Assembly: GCF_032362555.1 (NCBI RefSeq)
Contig: NC_083521.1
Location: 10,150,001-10,214,000, forward strand
Direction of reading: 5' to 3'
DNA from: Amyelois transitella
Taxonomy: Eukaryota; Arthropoda; Insecta; Lepidoptera; Pyralidae
DNA length: 64,000 nucleotides
Under the pieces are notes generated by a model. It had not been told where the DNA came from. It worked only from the letters and a program-made list of their open reading frames with translations, and did no database searches. Position numbers and translations under genes: made by a program. Of this stretch, positions 13,123 through 50,500 are shown piece after piece; the stretch's first letter is position 1, and every line of letters starts with the position of its first letter.

Positions 13123-13372
13123 GGCCTCTGTGGCGCAGCGGTAGTGCGCTTGTCTGTGTCACCGGAGGTCCCGGGTTCGAATCCCGGCCAGGGTATGATG
13201 AGAAATGAACTTTCTCTGATTGGCCTGGGTCTTGGATGTTTATCTATATAAGTATTTATTATAAAATATAGTATTGTTGAGTTAGTATCTCGTAACACAA
13301 GTTTCGAACTTACTTCGAGGCTAACTCAATCTGTGTAATTTGTCCCGTATATATTTATATTTATTTATTGTA
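13123..13372 (+). mobile_element. tRNA-derived SINE
   Basis: The head has an A box (TGGCGCAGCGG, 13131-13141) and a B box (GGTTCGAATCC, 13174-13184), so it derives from a tRNA gene. The body continues with ATGATGAGAAATGAACTTTC, a TTAGTATCTCGTAACAC segment and GTCCCGTATATATT. Reverse copies at 27010, 29543 and 56541 share the whole ~250 bases, which shows this is a SINE rather than a tRNA gene. Confidence 0.8.
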
Positions 13373-23600: not shown

Positions 23601-26600
23601 CTAATGGATTGCTTTCCATTTTGCTCATTGGTCTCTTCCTCTCATAATCTCAAACAAAAAAAAAGATTCATGATAACCGCATCTTAAAACTTTTGGATCT
23701 CAATCAATACCAATTAATTCTGATGGCATATTAAGTAGATGGAGATCTTAAGAATTATAAAATGCATTCATAATGAGGACTCCGGATTTTATTGTAACAG
23801 CTAAAAACTCAGTAGCGACCATTAACACAGTAAAAAATGAGAAAGCGTTTGTTACTTTCTTCATTTTTTTTGGAAGTGGAATAGTTTAAGTTAGGCTTAT
23901 AGGCAAGCCTACGAAAGAATGACCCAAATTAGAAAATAGGTACCACCGAATGTACCTTGGTCACCTGATTAAATCAGAACAGCCATAAACTCTCCCCTCG
24001 GTGTCAATGCCAGGTTACCCCATATTACAACCTTCACAGTATGATATGACGTCATTCCTGTTGACGCACTGTGAGTCACTTTCCTGCAAAATTTGGTGTG
24101 GTAGCCGTTAAGTTTTATCAAGTAATAAGATTTCATTTTTATCCACACTTTTTGGATAATTCTTTTGCAAAGTTTTCTTTATAACTGAGTTCATAAAAAG
24201 GCTTGGTAGAGTGGAATATTAAATCGAATATTTGCTTTCAAGTAAGCTGTTTGAAGCTTCGTGTGAATTGTATTGACATTAAGGGTTTCTACTTCATTAA
24301 TTTCTATTATTTCAGGGATTTTTTTTCAATAACGAATTTTTGTTTCTGCTATGAATATAAAAACTAATCTGTTTAATAATAAGGCTACATGTAAGAGAGA
24401 ACAAAAGGCTATATCTAATAAAACAACAAAAGTAAAAGTATTTGTTTGGCTCTGTTTACCCCGCGAGGGATAAAAACGACTATATGTATGTATATGTTTA
24501 CCAGATAAAGGTTCGGAGGTTAGGGGGCGGGTCTGTGGCCATCATGGTGGTAATGGCAGAGAAAATGAGGGGTATTAGAGGTCTTTGATAAATGTGACCA
24601 ATGCCATAGCTGCCTACGGATGAGGTGCTGTTTCACCATTCATGTATGTCTATTGAAATTATGGAACACAGAAAATTCAGCCAAAATTTACGAGACGTAC
24701 GCGCAAAAAGAAACATAATAATAATTTTTAAAACGATCTGTAACTTTCGTTCGTATTATGTACAAACTTACCTTTTTAGATTAAATCAAAAATTTATTTT
24801 TACGGACCTAATTCACTTAAATAAAAAGTAGAACTCTTTCTTTTTTATTTAGATTAAACTTTTAATTTCTTTGGCTACTTATAAAGGATGGATTCCGCTT
24901 ACCACCTATATGTTGATCTTACCCAAATCTTTCAATAATATCTACAACATGTCTATTATTAATTACCTTAGTCTATCTAAACCAGTGTTACGCAGATGAC
25001 CAACCACTATATCAAGTAAATTGTAATTTTAACGAGCTCCACAAATTACCCACTAGAACATGTATTTACGTTTCGGAGGTCAGGGGGCGGCCCTCTGCCC
25101 CTTGTTCAAGGCCCGTGGGAGGGATCGAGGTATTGTCAAAAAATTATCGAGGTCATTTGAGTAATGCAGCTGTGTATATTGTTTTAATTGCTTTATCTAC
25201 AACTCTTCATTAAGAGGTGCATGATTCTGCCGTGGTAAGATAACATTCGTTTCATGTCTGACTGATGACCCGACTCATCCACTAGAATCAGGTAAACATT
25301 AAGCGAATTTTGACTCACTCCATACTAGTAACAGTTCGATGATGGGTATTCCATGTGAAGGTCTTATTCACTGTCTGATAGACTCATAAACTATCGAAGG
25401 AAATTAGTATTCAAACAAGTCACGAATAAGTAATTTTTGACAAAATTAACGTATGCATTCTTTTAATTATCGCATACGGCATTAAATTACGATAATGACG
25501 ATATAGTCCAAGATCCCAGAGCCGTAAGACACAACTTATTTTCTAAAGAATGGATCTTTCGATTCTCAGTAGTCTTTCATGTACTTTTAATACCTGCATG
25601 TTTGTGAGACTTGCCCGGTGACACCTGCGCAGGTACCAGGCGAGAAAGGTAACTAAAAATCACAGTTACTTAACTTAAATTTTTATGACTGATTTTTATA
25701 TATATTTTATAGACTATTACTCTGAAGTCATATCAGAGAAGTCAGACGCTTTCCATGCGCCAGAACTTTTGTCAGACGCTTTAAAGCTCTATCAAAAAAA
25801 ACTATTAGAAAAAACTATTTTCAAATATTAGATATTTTACTCTGACGCGCATGCGCATTGTGCTATCGCGCTCATACTCGAGGCTGAGTAATTCTTGTGT
25901 TTAAGGGGTGTTTGGTCATTACAAACTGTCTGACTGATTTAATACAACTTTGTAATAGTTATCTGAATAACATATATAAAAGTCAGACATTTAAAAATAA
26001 ATTAAGTTAATTTTTTTTTGATAGAGCTTTAATGCGTCTGACAAAAGTTCTGGCGCATGGAAAGCGTCTGACTTCTCTGATATGACTTCAGAGTAATAGT
26101 CTATAAAATATATATAAAAATCAGTCATAAAAATTTAAGTTAAGTAACTGTGATTTTTAGTTACCTTTCTCGCCTGGTACCTGCGCAGGTGTCACCGGGC
26201 AAGTCTCACAAACATGCAGGTATTACAAGTACATGAAAGACTACTGAGAATCGAAAGATCCATTCTTTAGAAAATAAGTTGTGTCTTACGGCTCTGGGAT
26301 CTTACTCTAATATAGATTTTAAAAGTTAAGTGAAATTTCGGAGCACGAAGGCAAATGCACGTTTTTATTGTAAACTTTGTGGCGACATCTCTACGCCTAT
26401 CAGTAAAAAACAGCAAATAGTCTAAATCGCGCAAGCAAAGATATCACGTTTAGAGCATATATACAACCTCTGACACAACATCGTCGGAGCCGCGGTTCCC
26501 TAGGCATCACACCAGCCTGGCGGTAGATCTTCCCTTTGGTGGCGGTCGAGCCCGAATCATCGCTCCCGCTACAACTTTATCTTATCTTAACTTGATATCA

Positions 26601-38900: not shown

Positions 38901-41900
38901 AGATTCAAATAGTGACAGGTTACTAGCACATCGCCTAAAAGAAGAATCCCAAGTTTATAAGCCTGCCTCTTAGTCGCCTTTTACGACATCCATGGGAAAG
39001 AGATGGAGTGGTCCTATTCATTTTTGCATTGGTGCCGGGAACCACACGGCACTGGCGTTACATCCACTGGTGAGAAGACTGGCGCCCTTTGCCCGTGAAC
39101 CTGGATTGGGTGAATCAGTGACATGATAAATATCTAAGACTTAGACAGAGTTAGCTTTTCATTATATTTGATCAGGATTCGAACCGGAACCTTCTGATAA
39201 AGAAGCAGGCATTTACCAAAATAACTTTGCATTATTAACAATTTGTTCGGCACACGATTTGTGGCTCCCAGTTTTAAAAAGCAATTGTCACCTTCATTTA
39301 TATCTTTATCATGATCAGCAAGTTTTTTTCCACCTTCTCACTTTTCCCAGACCAGAAGACATTAACGCAAAGCCCTGGGTGTCCCGCCGAGTGGGCCAGA
39401 GTACCGGCCTCGTGGTGGTCTACACGGAGAATGATGAGGATTATGCTTATCTGCGTCGACCAGCACTCGGAGTCGAGGTCATACATACATACATAAAATC
39501 ACGCCTCTTTCCCGGAGGGGTACGCAGAGACTACCTCTTTCCACTTGCCACGATCTCTGCATACATCCTTCGCTTCATCCACATTCATAACTCTCTTCAT
39601 ACAAGCTCGGCGGTTTCGGATACTTTTGACCTGACCCTTTACCAGGACGTCCTTAATTTACATATATATGGTCACGACTATATCAATTGCGGGGTAGACA
39701 GAGCCAATAGTCTTGAAAAGACTGAATGGCCACGTTCAGCTATTTGGCTTAATGATAGGATTGAGATTTAAATAGTGACAGGTTGTTAGCCCATCGCCTA
39801 AAAAAAGAATCCCAAGTTTGTAAGCCTATCCCTCAGTCTTTTACGACATCCATGGGAAAGGGATGGAGTGGTCCTATTCTTTTTTGTATTGGTGCCGGGA
39901 ACCACATGGCACATCGAGGTCATCGTATACATATTTATTTCTTTTTTGAACATTTCTACCTCCTGGCATAAGTACTGTACATCCATCCACGCCTTTCTGG
40001 AAAGCCCGGGTACGGTAGAATTACTTACTTACATTATTTTTTGGTAGCCATCACTCTAATAATACTTAGGCTCTACAGCAAGCAAGAAAATTGTAACCTG
40101 AATACTTTCATCTAGTGGAATGAACTGGCTTAAAAGGTAGGCTGGGTGAATCACTAAGATTAAAGACAGACACTTGGAGAATCCAAGTAAAATTTAACTT
40201 ATCCCTAACAACTTACGACTTACAACTAAGTCGTGGTCATAGGCCGACTTCAGGCTTAGTGCTGTTTACGATTCAGCATCTATAGCCAACGAAAATTTGG
40301 AGGAAGATAATCCTACTTCCAGGTTTTGTTGTTTGATGGTGACGAGTATCCGCTGCTGGAGACGGGGGTGACGCGACTGTACCCGGTACAAAGGAATACT
40401 TCCATGTTCTTCTCTCTCAATCTGCGAGACATCAGGAGTAGTTCCGACCTGGGCTCGTATAGTGAGAGCTGGGTGAGTAAAATATGGTTGCAACTCTAGA
40501 CATTTGATTTCTGATTGCTACATAGGGAATAAAGGACAGTCACAATCATTCATTATTATCACAATGTGGAGAGACTGTGTGACTGTGACTGTGTGAGTGT
40601 GCCGTGTGGTTCCCGGCACCAATACAAAAAAAGAAAAGGACCACTCCATCTCTTTCCTATGGATGTCGTAAAACTTGGGATTACAAACTTGGAATTCTTT
40701 TTTAGGCGATGGGCTAGCAACCTGTCAAAATTTGAATCTCAATTCCATCATAAAGCCAAAGAGCTGAACGTGGCCTATCAGTCTTTTCAAGACTGTTGGC
40801 TCTGTCTACCCCGCAAGGGATATAGACGTGACCTTATATATGTATGTATGTGGAGAGACTATGGATGTGCACTTGATACGATTCCTACAAGCTTTTTCTT
40901 ACCCTAAAAAGGACAAAGATAAAAGTAAAAATTCTTCGATCAGAAACTTATCAATGTCCCAGCGAAAGGCGGATTGAGAATTACTACATACTTAGAAAAG
41001 TTATCATTTGAAAACGTGATTTAGAACAGGCACAAGGTATATCCATTTATTGTTCATCATTCACCTCTATGAATTGGGATGCGGTATTTATAAGACTACC
41101 TTCCAGCGTCGATGCGGCATCCGCGCCGCCGCCGGCCCGGCCGCCGCGCGCGCCAGCTACGGCTGGTGCCTGCTGCGGTGCCGCCGGCGCACGGCCGCCG
41201 CGCTGTGCGACTGCGTGCCCTACACGCTCATGCCGAGCGAGCTAGTGTGCAGCATCGGCCAGCTGCCTTGTCTGGACAAACACAAAGGTTTATTGACTAC
41301 TAGCGACCCGCCCCGGCTTCGCACGGGTGCAAAATTATAAATGTTATTATACATAAAAACCTTCCTCTTGAATCACTCTACCTGTTACAAAAAACCGCAT
41401 CAAAATCCGTTGCGTAATTTTAAAGATTTAAGCATACAGACAAACAGACTAAAATAGCGACTTTGTTTTATACTATGTAGTGACTAGTTGTGCCCGCGAC
41501 TTCGTCCGCGTATAGTTATTTTGGGCATCATTGAAGCCCTCAAGGATGAATAATTTTCCCCGTTTTTTTTCACATTTTCCATTATTTCTTCGCTCCTTAA
41601 AGTTGCAGCGAGATGTTATATAGCCTTAAGCCTTCCTCGATAAATGGTCTGTTCAATTCGAACGTAGTTCTTGAGATAAGCGCGTTGAAACAAACAAACT
41701 CTTCAGCTTTATAATTAGTATAGATATAGATAATCACGTCTTTACCCATTTGTGCCGTGTGGATCCCAGCACCAATAGGAAAGAGAATAGGACCACTCCA
41801 TCTCTTTCCTATGGATATCGTAAAAGGCGACTAAGGGATCGGCTTGTAAACTTGGGATTCTTCTTTTAGGCGACAGGCTAGCAATCTGTCACTATTTGAA

Positions 41901-44534: not shown

Positions 44535-47500
44535 CTATACCCACGAAAATGGATCAAATGGATTGAAAATCTGAAGACGTGGCTCTTTTCGTCTGCTCCT
44601 AGCTTTTTCAGATTTGTACAAATACATTCCTCGTGACGAGGAACTGCAGGAGTAGCCTACCACGGTCTCGTTCCCACTGCACTCTCCACGCATCAGCTCG
44701 TTCCAAGATCGGCACTCTCTTCCCATTAAAGATCGATCATTCTGGACAGACTCCGAATAAAGCCTCCACGCCTGCGCATGGTCGCACTCTAAAGTGATAC
44801 TCCTGTCCCGACACTCTGGCTGCTTCACCAGCACTCCGTTCACGTACACATCAGCATGACCCACAGGATTCTCTAATCCTAAAATCCCGGCGCTAGAATG
44901 TACCACTTGGACAAACTGTGCATCATTTTTGTCCAGCCTGTATTCAGCTAATCTGACAAAACACGGTCTCGCCGGATCAAGAGCTGTAATTCTTCCAATC
45001 CTTTCCTTCAACCCTTTTTTAACCAGCTTCCCCGTGATACCTGCCACGTGGGCTCCGAGGCTGAATCCTATCAGATGTACGGCTGATAAAGGTATGCCTT
45101 CTCTGTAGACGTTTTTGATGAAGTTGTACAGCAGATTGGCTAGAGCCTTGACTCTTGACGCCGAGGAGATGTATCCTCGATGGAAGGCGAGGCGCGTATC
45201 AATGACTAAGACTATTGGGTTTTTTCTGAGTAGAGCCGTGACTAACGCTTGTGCGGCTTCGTCGTTTGGGGAGTTCAACCACCCGGGGATGTAGACTATG
45301 AGAGCGGCGGGTCGCGGGTGTTCGCGGAGGCGGAGGTGGGCGTTGGCGACGCGGTAGGAGCGGCGGCCGGTCCGGGTGAACTCCACCACGTCCAGGAGGG
45401 GCAGCTCGGAGGTGTACTGCCTGGAGAATAACACCTCCAGGGGCAGGATCTCACCTGAAAATGTTTTTTTTTATTATATGTATATTTTAAAATATTATTT
45501 TTTGATGTCTACTGTTTGCATGACATCGACGTATTTAAAATCCGAAAGCAAAATTCGTCTCGGGAATTAATGGAGACAGGGGTAGTCTTTTCCCAGCAAT
45601 GGGTCACGATATTACGGTTTACGTTTTCTTAGGCGGAAAACAAGTATGTAAAAATCATCTCACAATGCTTTTATGTAGGTACTCGATGATGGAAAATAAT
45701 TTGCTTTAATGACATCCGTAGGGCTAAATGCAATGAGTTACGTTACAATTTAAATAAAGAACAGTTTATTATAATTGTGTCACTATTTGATAATAATAAA
45801 CGCGTAGGCGACGAAAAGCAGGTCAAGCGCAGGTTCATTGCCGCTGCGGTTGAGTTACGATGCATACATACATACATAAAATCACGCCTCTTTCCCGGAG
45901 GGGTAGGCAGAGACTACCTCTTTCCACTTGCCACGATCTCTGCATACTTCTTTCGCTTCGTCCACATTCATAACTCTCTTCATACAAGCTCGGCGGTTTC
46001 GGGTACTTTTGACCTGACCCTTTACCAGGACGTCCTTAATTTGATCAAGATACGTTCGTCTAGGTCTTCCCACTCCGACCTTTCCCTCCACACTCTCCTT
46101 GTATATCTGCTTAGTCAACCTGCTTTCATTCATCCTCTCCACATGACCGAACCATCTTAACATACCCTTTTCTATTCCTGTAACTACATCTTCTTTCACA
46201 TCACAACATTCCCTTATCACGCTGTTCCTTATCCTGTCACTCAATTTCACACCCATCATACTCCTTAACGCTCTCATTTCCACTGCATTTATTCTGCTTT
46301 CATGCTTCTTTTGCCATACCCAACTTTCACTCCCATACATTAATGTCGGGACCAACACGCCCCTGTGCACAGCCAGTCGAGCCTTTTTGGATAGTTTCTG
46401 ACTGCTCATAAAGGCATGCAAAGCTCCATTCACCATGTTCCCCGCGTTCACTCTCCTTTCAATATCACTATCATACTTGCCATCTGATGTAAACTTTGAT
46501 CCTAGATATACAAACTCTTTCACTTGCTCCACTTTTTCTCCTCCAATCAAAATATTACATGCTGTCATTTCTTTCTCCATTTCAAAAACCAGTGTTTTAG
46601 TTTTACTTACGTTCACTTTCATTCCTTTCTCTTTTAAAGCTTCATGCATACAGTTTACCATCTCCTGTAACTCCTCCGCTGATGACGCCAGTATAACCTG
46701 ATCGTCGGCATAGAGCAGACATTTGACGAGTAACTCATTCATCCTTAATCCACTTTTAGACTCTTTCAAATCTGTCAAACAGCTATCCATAAATAGGTTG
46801 AACAGCCACGGTGACGCAACACATCCTTGCCTAACGCCTTTCTCAATCTTAAACCACTCAGTGTGCGCTCCGTTTATCCTGACACAAGCACTCGAATCCT
46901 CATATAAGGATTTCAGTGCTCGTATTAAGAGACTGCTCACCCCATGCATAGAAAGTGCTGACCACAATTCATTCCTCTCAACTCTGTCATAGGCCTTTTC
47001 CAGATCTACGAATGTGCAATAGACTTTTTGACTCTTGGCCAAAAACTTTTCGGCTATGCACCGCAAGGAAAAGACCTGATCAGTACATCCCATTCCCTTT
47101 CGAAATCCCGCTTGAGCATCCCATATTTTGTCATCAGTTTCATTCCTGACTCTATTAATCAATACCTTAGCATACAATTTGCCGACGACGCTAAGCAGGC
47201 TTATACCACGATAATTTTTGCAGTCCAGCTGTGACCCTTTTCCTTTGTAAAGTGGCACGATAACAGCCTTACACCAATCTTTTGGTACTCGGCCGCTTCT
47301 CCAACACAAATTGAAAAGGCAGTACAACTGACTAGCTACTACGCCTTTTCCTGCTTTAAGCATCTCGACCGACACTCTATCACACCCAGCAGCCTTTCCC
47401 GCTTTCATACTCTTAAGTGCTTCCACAATTTCGAACATTTCAATTTCGCCTTCCATCTCATTCTCTTTTTCTTCGCTATAGCAGAAATCTTTCTTATTTC

Positions 47501-50500
47501 CTTCCTTTTTTTCAAATAAACTTTCAAAATAGTCCTTCCATATCTTTAGTACACATTCTTCTCCTTTCACAACGCTACCATCCTGGCATCTGATCCTAGT
47601 CAGCTCTCTGGTTATAGTATTTCCTCGGGCTGACCTTACGGATTTCCAGAATACTTTCAGATTTGACTGAAAGTCTTCTGATAGCCTTTTATCAAAATCC
47701 TCTTTATACTCTTCTTTCTTTCTAATCACAGCTTTCTTAACCAAATCTTTCATTTTCTTATATTCCTTACGTGCTTCATTCACATCTTCATCTATAACCT
47801 CTTGCATTCTTAAGTTAGCTTTTGCTGCTAACAAATCCAGCCATGCTTTCTTCTTTAATCGCACAAGTTCTTGCACATCTTTACTCATCCACGCATTTTT
47901 GTGATTTTTTCCTTTCCTTCTTCTACTTACACCACACACTTCAACAGCTACTTTCACAATTCTTTCTTTAAATTCCTTCCATCCATCTTCAATATCGCTC
48001 ATTTCCTCTAAATCTTCAAATTCATCCTTCAGTCTATTAATATACTTCTTACCTACATCCATATCTTGCAAATTTTCTACTTTTACTCTTTCCAAAGCGC
48101 TGGTTTGCTCCCTTACCCTGTGCCGCCAGCGATTGAAGATACCCCTTATCCGGGATATCACCAGTAAATGGTCCGAGTCAATGCCAGCACCGCGATATGC
48201 ACGGGTATCCAGCACTTTGTTCTTCAATCTTTCATCTACAATCACAAAGTCTATCATACTTTTTAAAATACCTTCCACTCTTGTGTAGGTGTGGATCTCT
48301 TTATGTTGAAACATTGAGTTCGACACAAAAAGATCCCACTCTAGACAAATTTCTAATACACTTCTTCCATTATCATTCACCTTTTCGTCACCAAACGCAC
48401 CAAGCACCTTTTCATATCCATCACGCTTTACACCCACCCATCCATTAAAATCACCTAACATAATAATCTTCTCATTTGGCTTGGTAACTTTCAATACTTC
48501 TCTTACACTATTCCAGAACTCCTCGTTTTCGCTTTTTGCTGATGTTGTACCCCTCGAACCCACATCCCAAGGTGCATAAACACCTAGAACGAAGATCCGA
48601 GTGATTCCAACTTTCAGCCTAATCCATAGAAGACGAGGGCTGACACACTCATACTCATTCACGCACTCAGCCATTCGTGCAGAAAGAATTAGACCGACCC
48701 CTTGACAGCCTCGGCTGGTACTGGAAATTCCAGACCAATACGCCGTGTAAGGGCCGTGCTGCGTCGCGTCGCATCCTTTCCGCTTCGTTTCATTCACGCA
48801 CAACACATCCAAACGTCTTTCATCCATCATCTGGCATACTTCCTCAATCTTATCCTTCATTCCTCCTCTTACATTCATCGTCGCAAAGCGGCTTTCAGCA
48901 GACCGCATACCGCTCCCGCCGGGAACGAGACGTGATGGGGTGCGGACACCATCGCCGCCATCTAGGTGCTCTTTCAAAAGATTTGCATCCATGCGATTCC
49001 CACGAGACGCTAGGGAAAAATTTTGTCCGCCCCAGCAGAGCCCCGCATGCCAGGGTAAGGCTAGCCATTACCTGGGGGTCGCCCAACCCCATGGCGGAAG
49101 TGGCACGCTCGAGACTAGGCTCGCCCCTAGCCATGCATCCATCGGCGCGGCAGACCTTAGATTGGCAGCTAGCACCTATGATTATTATATTATAAAAATA
49201 TAATTAATTCGAGAGACAGCAAGTACAGCGGGATTCTGTTGAAAATCGTAAATATCCGTCGTAAGTGAACAAAATCGATTTACGATGTTACGAGTTACGA
49301 TGATGTGAGTAAAGCTTAGTTCACACATGTTACCAATGCTAATGATTAATGTTACATGATTCCAAATGTCTAAGATAAAATAAAGGTGTGTTACGTGCGC
49401 TTAGTACCTTAATTATTTATCTTTACCTTTCATCTTTACTTGGTCAAAATCAACTAACTCTTATTAATTTTCTTCTTTATGTAATTCCGGGAGAGATGAA
49501 TATAAAATTATCTTTTGCCATGCCATATATTACAAATTAGGTTTTTACTACAAATATAATGTAAAAGGCTTACTGAACAGATCTATCAATATTAAAATTA
49601 TTAATTAACTAAGTTTAAATACTTTTCAAGTTCGTGTAAACTGAGCATTATGCTAATGAATTATTTATAAGACCGTAACTTCCGATTGGCCGGAATAATT
49701 TTAGGAGTTTATTTATAAGCTTAATTAGAATAAGGAACCTTCTTATAATAAAAAATCAGTTCAAATACTTTCATAAAGCTCAGGTTTATTATTCTAATCT
49801 GACCGAACGGTTAAATCAATTTCGAACAGTTACGAAGTAAGACAAATAATTTTAAGGTGTATATAATAATGTCAAGAAATATTTTCATGAAATTCCAAAT
49901 CCAGTCTAGTTATCTGAAATTAAATATCCCTAAAAATAATTTAAAACCTTCCTTTATGAATTCTTGCTAATTATTATGTCAGAAACACATATTTTCGACA
50001 AAGACAAGACATGTCTTACATTCCTTACTCTTTTAGAATTAAAACATAAATGAATCATTCAGTACTCCATCGTTAGGTAACTACAGCTGTGATACAGACA
50101 GACAGACAGATAATGATCGCGTTGTAATGAATGGCTGCGACGGCGGAAGCATATCCGCGTGCGCCGGCGCAGCGACGCGGCGCGATCTATGTGAAAATGG
50201 CAGTTTAGCACGTACAGAACAAGAACATTTGATATTATTTATGATTATCCAAATCGCGTAAGTCCCGGTTACATTTTCACCTCTCTGGAGAGGTGGCCAG
50301 GGTTTGCTTCAACCACAAACATTGATTGGTCACTCATTCTAGTCTGACCTACTATGCCATCGCAGAGAATCCATGGGGGAATCTTGTCTATATTGCATCG
50401 TAAGTGCACTTCCTGAAACTGAAGGTTTCTATTATCCCTCGACGTTATTATCATAAGCATCAGTTAGCCATCAATAACTCTCATTTGTCTTTCAGTTGCA

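Follow-up and report, generated by a model that had tools for sequence, protein, structure and literature searches.

A SINE–RTE composite at a predicted splice donor

We analysed a window of 64,000 nt (positions 10150001-10214000 of contig C17) from an assembly of 327 Mb in 33 contigs, the repeats of which have a lepidopteran appearance. The feature under study, at 39473..39923 on the minus strand, is a complete SINE fused to the 5'-truncated 3' end of an RTE retrotransposon, and it lies within a predicted DEG/ENaC-like gene on the plus strand. Elsewhere in the window, a tRNA-His gene occupies 13124-13195 on the plus strand.

One predicted exon of the DEG/ENaC-like gene (39351..39477, plus strand) ends at the insertion site with TCGAG/GT in phase 0 (..ALGVE/V..). 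It continues in phase 0 into the predicted next exon at 40323..40472 on the same strand (VLLFDGDEYPLL..ESW, joined as ALGVE/VLLFDGDEYPLLETG), the end of which we placed at a GTGAGT donor in the sequence. When the pieces of the gene were joined by eye, the product matched the Pfam family ASC (amiloride-sensitive sodium channel) at 1.2e-24. The two exons at 39351-39477 and 40323-40472 without the other pieces scored 0.036, below the family's cut-off, and the 42-aa exon (39351-39477) by itself matched neither a Pfam family nor a solved structure.

Read along the minus strand, the locus consists of the target sequence ATGACCTCGA, one nucleotide, the SINE (252 nt), the RTE part (180 nt, with TATG x4) and then ACCTCGA. 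The SINE spans 39661..39912, a range that takes in its 3' end and a brief TATG tail; from 39912 to 39661, it aligns to positions 1-255 of a consensus that we built from 48 full-length copies, with 94.5% identity. The RTE part comprises the last 180 nt of the element (39480..39659, with the tail at 39480-39495) and, from 39659 to 39480, is 97.2% identical to an RTE copy at 45863. The SINE tail ..CATATATATGT meets RTE AAATTAAGG.. at 39659..39661 on the minus strand in an exact joint with an overlap of 0-1 nt, one A possibly being common to both parts. Because the RTE copy at 45863 has CTTGATC before AAATTAAGG, unlike the composite, the RTE part is genuinely cut at the joint. These coordinates and alignments agree with the layout given in the initial annotation, namely a whole SINE followed in the same orientation by a truncated RTE end, with a direct repeat on the outside only; the annotation did not name the strand, which is minus for both parts.

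The outer direct repeat, TCGAGGTCAT, is present at 39473..39482, across the exon/intron boundary TCGAG/GTCAT, and again at 39914..39923. Its two copies agree at all 10 nt, and 7 of these lie beyond the tail repeat; as ATG could equally be part of the TATG tail, the share of the target in it is 7 to 10 nt. The same sequence occurs a third time in the window, at 25147, within unrelated sequence. When 14-nt stretches of the window were paired at random 200,000 times, about 0.026% of the pairs had an exact common run of at least 10 nt. The repeat copy at 39473 is made up of the end of an exon and the start of an intron, and TCGAGGTCAT is therefore independently shown to be target DNA.

The composite sits exactly on the predicted 5' splice site of this DEG/ENaC (pickpocket-like) gene. 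The target duplication has copied the donor, and a GT stays adjoining exon 39351-39477; past this GT, the retained donor, GTCAT, is weak. A duplicated donor beside the exon suggests how an insertion within a gene may be tolerated.

The RTE element, the SINE and their similar 3' ends

An apparently full-length copy of the RTE lies at 45863..49291 on the minus strand, its 5' end being placed only by the 11-nt duplication CATCGTAACTC (45852-45862 and 49292-49302). Within this copy, an ORF of 1036 aa (45882-48992, minus strand) matches RVT_1 at 3.8e-41 and Exo_endo_phos_2 at 3.1e-06 (27.5 bits versus a cut-off of 27.4). A single ORF for an endonuclease and a reverse transcriptase, a short 3' UTR of simple TATG repeats and a duplication of 11 nt agree with an RTE-type non-LTR retrotransposon, and we keep RTE, the name given in the initial annotation, as a provisional one for the family. 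A stretch of 507 nt at locus L039 matches the copy at 45863-49291 without a single difference, an apparent sign of recent RTE activity.

Across 39 RTE copies from the window and loci L002-L050, the 5' ends gather at 81-101 nt (n = 12), 178-191 nt (n = 7) and 286-298 nt (n = 4) from the 3' end, although the 178-191-nt class includes the index composite itself and 3 ends contributed by a search that was biased. Copies without a SINE also end at 183, 185 and 190 nt, near the index cut. The 178-191-nt ends fall within a predicted 7-bp local hairpin (dot-bracket read by eye), and the stability of the RNA fold of the RTE end was not above that of shuffles (z = -0.39). An RTE tail of four units is ordinary, being found in 8 of 32 copies with the index composite counted.

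The SINE shows the features expected of its class: it is short, high-copy and non-autonomous, has duplications and carries a LINE-like 3' end. Its head had no match to tRNA, 5S or 7SL in Rfam up to E = 5; by simple pattern, box B was absent and one box-A-like match was present, at position 174. The last 32 nt before the SINE tail resemble the RTE end (CTCTG.CTACCCC..GGGA.A.AG.CGTGA), with a score of 26, whereas 2000 shuffles reached at most 20 and the 165 other windows of the RTE at most 17; the (TATG)n tail is common to the two elements. It is chiefly from the similar 3' end and the TATG tail that we conclude that the SINE is probably mobilised by this RTE or by one closely related to it. The initial annotation had read the chimera as direct evidence for this mobilisation; that claim is overstated because a jump shows only that SINE RNA was copied after a start on RTE RNA, and the similar 3' end is the better evidence.

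One insertion or two

The reading that we prefer, and consider fairly probable if short of proof, is a template switch in a single insertion. The RTE enzyme would have nicked the DEG/ENaC-like gene at the splice donor, begun synthesis at the TATG tail of an RTE RNA and copied about 180 nt. Copying would have halted near a point at which several SINE-free RTE copies are cut as well, and the enzyme would have shifted to a SINE RNA, entered it at the 3' end and copied it to the SINE 5' end; closure of the target would have left a single duplication. We include here the variant in which the two RNAs were joined before copying, which would give an identical product.

A duplication separating the two parts had been named in the initial annotation as the observation that would speak against a single event. 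We found no stretch of at least 7 nt of the duplication in the joint sequence. Five nucleotides of it, TGACC, are present in the SINE end, but they also belong to the SINE consensus itself. Locus L002 provides a positive control, in that an inner duplication, TATTATAGG, is visible there. The check is nevertheless blind to an RTE that inserted inside the TATG tail of the SINE, where a duplication of up to 6 nt (TATGTA) could be hidden.

Two insertions of this kind could indeed have built the locus: the SINE would have come first with ATGACCTCGA, and an RTE in the same orientation would later have entered its TATG tail, with its own duplication hidden. We regard this as rather unlikely but deserving of weight; our gradings of it and of the single event are judgements and not computed posteriors. 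The TATG tail common to SINE and RTE speaks for it, as do younger elements directly after older SINE tails at L025 (80% then 95% identity) and L015 (82% then 92%). Sequential neighbours are present in the genome at L002, L017 and L025, with those at L025, L015 and L017 being of the tail-to-head type, and some direct SINE–RTE joints combine a diverged SINE with an undiverged RTE and look sequential (C17:9419617 and C29:218670). The index SINE also has 11 differences from its consensus in 252 nt, versus 3 private changes in 178 nt of RTE (p = 0.17), with 6 of the 11 found in at least three other copies as well. Private changes in the 252 nt of the SINE amount to 5 substitutions plus 1 deletion, or 7 + 1 if variants in 3-4 of the 47 other copies are counted, and the RTE has 3 in 178 nt. 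Because these values are similar (6-8/252 versus 3/178), there is no clear age difference between the two parts.

By contrast, insertion into the tail needs an RTE duplication of 6 nt or less, and 3 of the 16 RTE duplications found are 5-6 nt long. It also needs an RTE tail of about two units, and it fits worse: in a rough simulation, the observed letters were 9-13 times likelier under one event than under tail insertion. The input to this simulation was the tail-unit and duplication lengths of 32 RTE and 60 SINE copies, of which 16 and 26, respectively, yielded a duplication. Complete SINEs inside RTE tails, moreover, are near the chance level. One insertion with a template switch is supported by the single outer duplication, the exact joint, the similar numbers of private changes, the failure to find a composite source in the searches described below and an excess of direct SINE–RTE joints over our chance estimate; tail insertion fits one outer duplication too. 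For elements with repeat tails, a single outer duplication by itself is no proof of a single event.

In the opposite order, the RTE would have come first, regenerating the target site, and the SINE would then have entered the copy of that site on the left. Parallels are L002, where TATTATAGG precedes the SINE and recurs at the joint and TATTTTAGG follows the RTE, and L017, a SINE-after-SINE form with TACAACTATTAT. This order predicts ATGACC.. at the joint, whereas we found ..CATATATATGT/AAATTAAGG..; judged by these letters, it is already contradicted at the index locus unless an inner duplication was lost, and we consider it highly improbable. At L002 itself (L002:1501-1821), an equal 9-nt stretch lies before, between and, with one change, after the SINE and the RTE, the mark of two elements that entered a single regenerated target. 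Such target reuse, with its inner duplication, is absent at the index joint.

SINE–RTE contacts in the assembly and known chimeras

We also considered whether the composite was copied from the RNA of an existing SINE+RTE locus, through read-through from a SINE into an adjoining RTE fragment. Adjoining SINE and RTE pieces are present at L002, L007 and L008. However, with the 451-nt composite as the query, none of the other matches among the 40 of 7090 candidates that were scored covered it in full (next best 437 bits versus 814), and neither these candidates nor an exact-pattern search of the assembly yielded a source or sister with the index joint. We therefore hold this origin to be improbable.

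A pattern search of the genome for SINE–RTE junctions yielded 32 matches with the index counted, of which 21 are direct joints by eye. The first pattern (SINE end, 25-55 nt, RTE GGACGTCCTGGTAAAG), run as an exact pattern on the whole assembly, matched 9 places versus none for the reversed-pattern control, and none of the other eight matches carries the index joint letters. The second, with the RTE cut at about 76-112 nt, matched 23 places, again with none for the control. Direct joints, defined by 3 nt or less between SINE tail and RTE, made up 4 of 9 and 17 of 23 matches, respectively; one further match was unclear and 10 had a spacer, and a script without indels recognised fewer direct joints. 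The joints differ within both sets and among the 32 matches, which also counts against copying from an existing locus. An amplified composite family is likewise not supported, given that the joints differ between matches. Because the 9 and 23 places carry different joints, SINE–RTE contacts are recurrent and independent. Contig C29 holds 6 of the 32 matches.

Exact RTE anchors numbered 14,355 in the assembly, and 8,401 of them continue upstream. For 21 anchors in sampled sequence, 12 were continuous and 6 of the other 9 were truncated within about 36 nt (by eye). From such data, we estimated about 4,000 truncated RTE copies in the 76-112-nt class, or about 2,500 from a smaller unbiased sample. 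The 17 direct joints among the 23 matches in this class compare with about 5 expected by chance (3 with the smaller copy number), an estimate obtained by hand arithmetic from 48 SINE 3' anchors per 264 kb and a 14-nt SINE tail, and carrying a large error. Antisense contacts, in which the 5' end of the SINE faces the start of the RTE, were found at 4 and 7 places, and 4 or 5 were direct by eye among the 8 matches listed of these 11, which speaks against the single-event reading. The numbers of sense and antisense contacts (32 versus 11) mirror the available SINE ends (48:15; Fisher p = 1.0), and this lack of a sense bias does not favour the jump as the main source of contacts.

In an age test on 18 of the 21 direct joints (three with shortened SINE ends were dropped), the SINE ends lay nearer the consensus than in old copies (p = 0.035); comparison with young copies (p = 0.47) and with the full set of copies (p = 0.17) showed no difference. 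The index joint, with 3 changes, falls in the more diverged third of the set. An RTE tail followed by a complete SINE was found at 51 places, 10 of them with a gap of 0-13 nt (about 7 expected). At the other 41, the SINE begins 14-30 nt after RTE TTTTATG, which is 4.6 times chance; this excess fits an RTE right duplication that was cut again after the tail, as at L017.

At L049:6907-7404, C13:3804430 and C27:3660887, an antisense SINE directly adjoins a truncated RTE start, with the tails pointing outward. Such pairs could be the outcome of priming of two RNAs at one break. A broader proposal, which we put forward as speculative and unlikely, is that the RTE enzyme stalls at a few fixed distances from the end of its RNA (about 90, 180-190 and 290 nt) and joins a SINE in either orientation, with many, perhaps hundreds, of chimeras as the result. 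If true, this stall-point reading would mean that the genome itself documents how an RTE-type enzyme jumps between templates and primes on two RNAs.

Lepidopteran genomes often contain RTE ends that are truncated and have duplications of 6-12 bp (PMC2887409), and partner pairs have been described there: PxSE5/SfSE1 with PxLINE1, which ends in ATGT repeats, and HaSE1/HaSE3 with HaRTE1 (PMC8010984, PMC3272025). As in the present case, these are lepidopteran SINEs whose last ~43 nt resemble a LINE 3' end, a comparison made at the level of their descriptions. HaSE3 has been proposed to be a template-switch product of SINE RNA and 5S rRNA; a SINE–LINE joint within one duplication, by contrast, is not reported in the accessible text of these two papers (PMC8010984, PMC3272025). 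In the open-access literature, as far as its accessible text extends, we found no lepidopteran SINE–RTE chimera within one duplication.

Parallels come from other lineages too. In Magnaporthe, MINE, WEIRD-MgSINE and WEIRD-MgSINE-MGL likewise fuse the RNAs of a SINE and a LINE with similar 3' ends within one duplication, and some LINE break points recur (PMC2104539). Unlike the complete SINE described here, Mg-SINE is 5'-truncated with WEIRD in front, and its break consensus is GCC^A/U, whereas the RTE ends of this study gather elsewhere (PMC2104539). Among human chimeric insertions, 452 Alu/LINE-1 cases have been catalogued, and these resemble the present locus in that they consist mostly of a complete sense SINE and a LINE 3' end with one duplication of at least 7 nt (PMC13174262). 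The differences are that the human cases involve L1 and poly(A) tails, and the present one an RTE that ends in TATG repeats and resembles the SINE at its 3' end; that the human cases are mostly sense, whereas contacts here have no genome-wide sense bias; and that joint arrival was judged there from cross-species alignments and is proposed here from the sequence of one genome (PMC13174262). The kind is already known from these human Alu/L1 chimeras, and the composite is probably a further case, in an RTE-type system. LINE/SINE chimeras of this sort are a record of the template changes of reverse transcriptase in a living genome.
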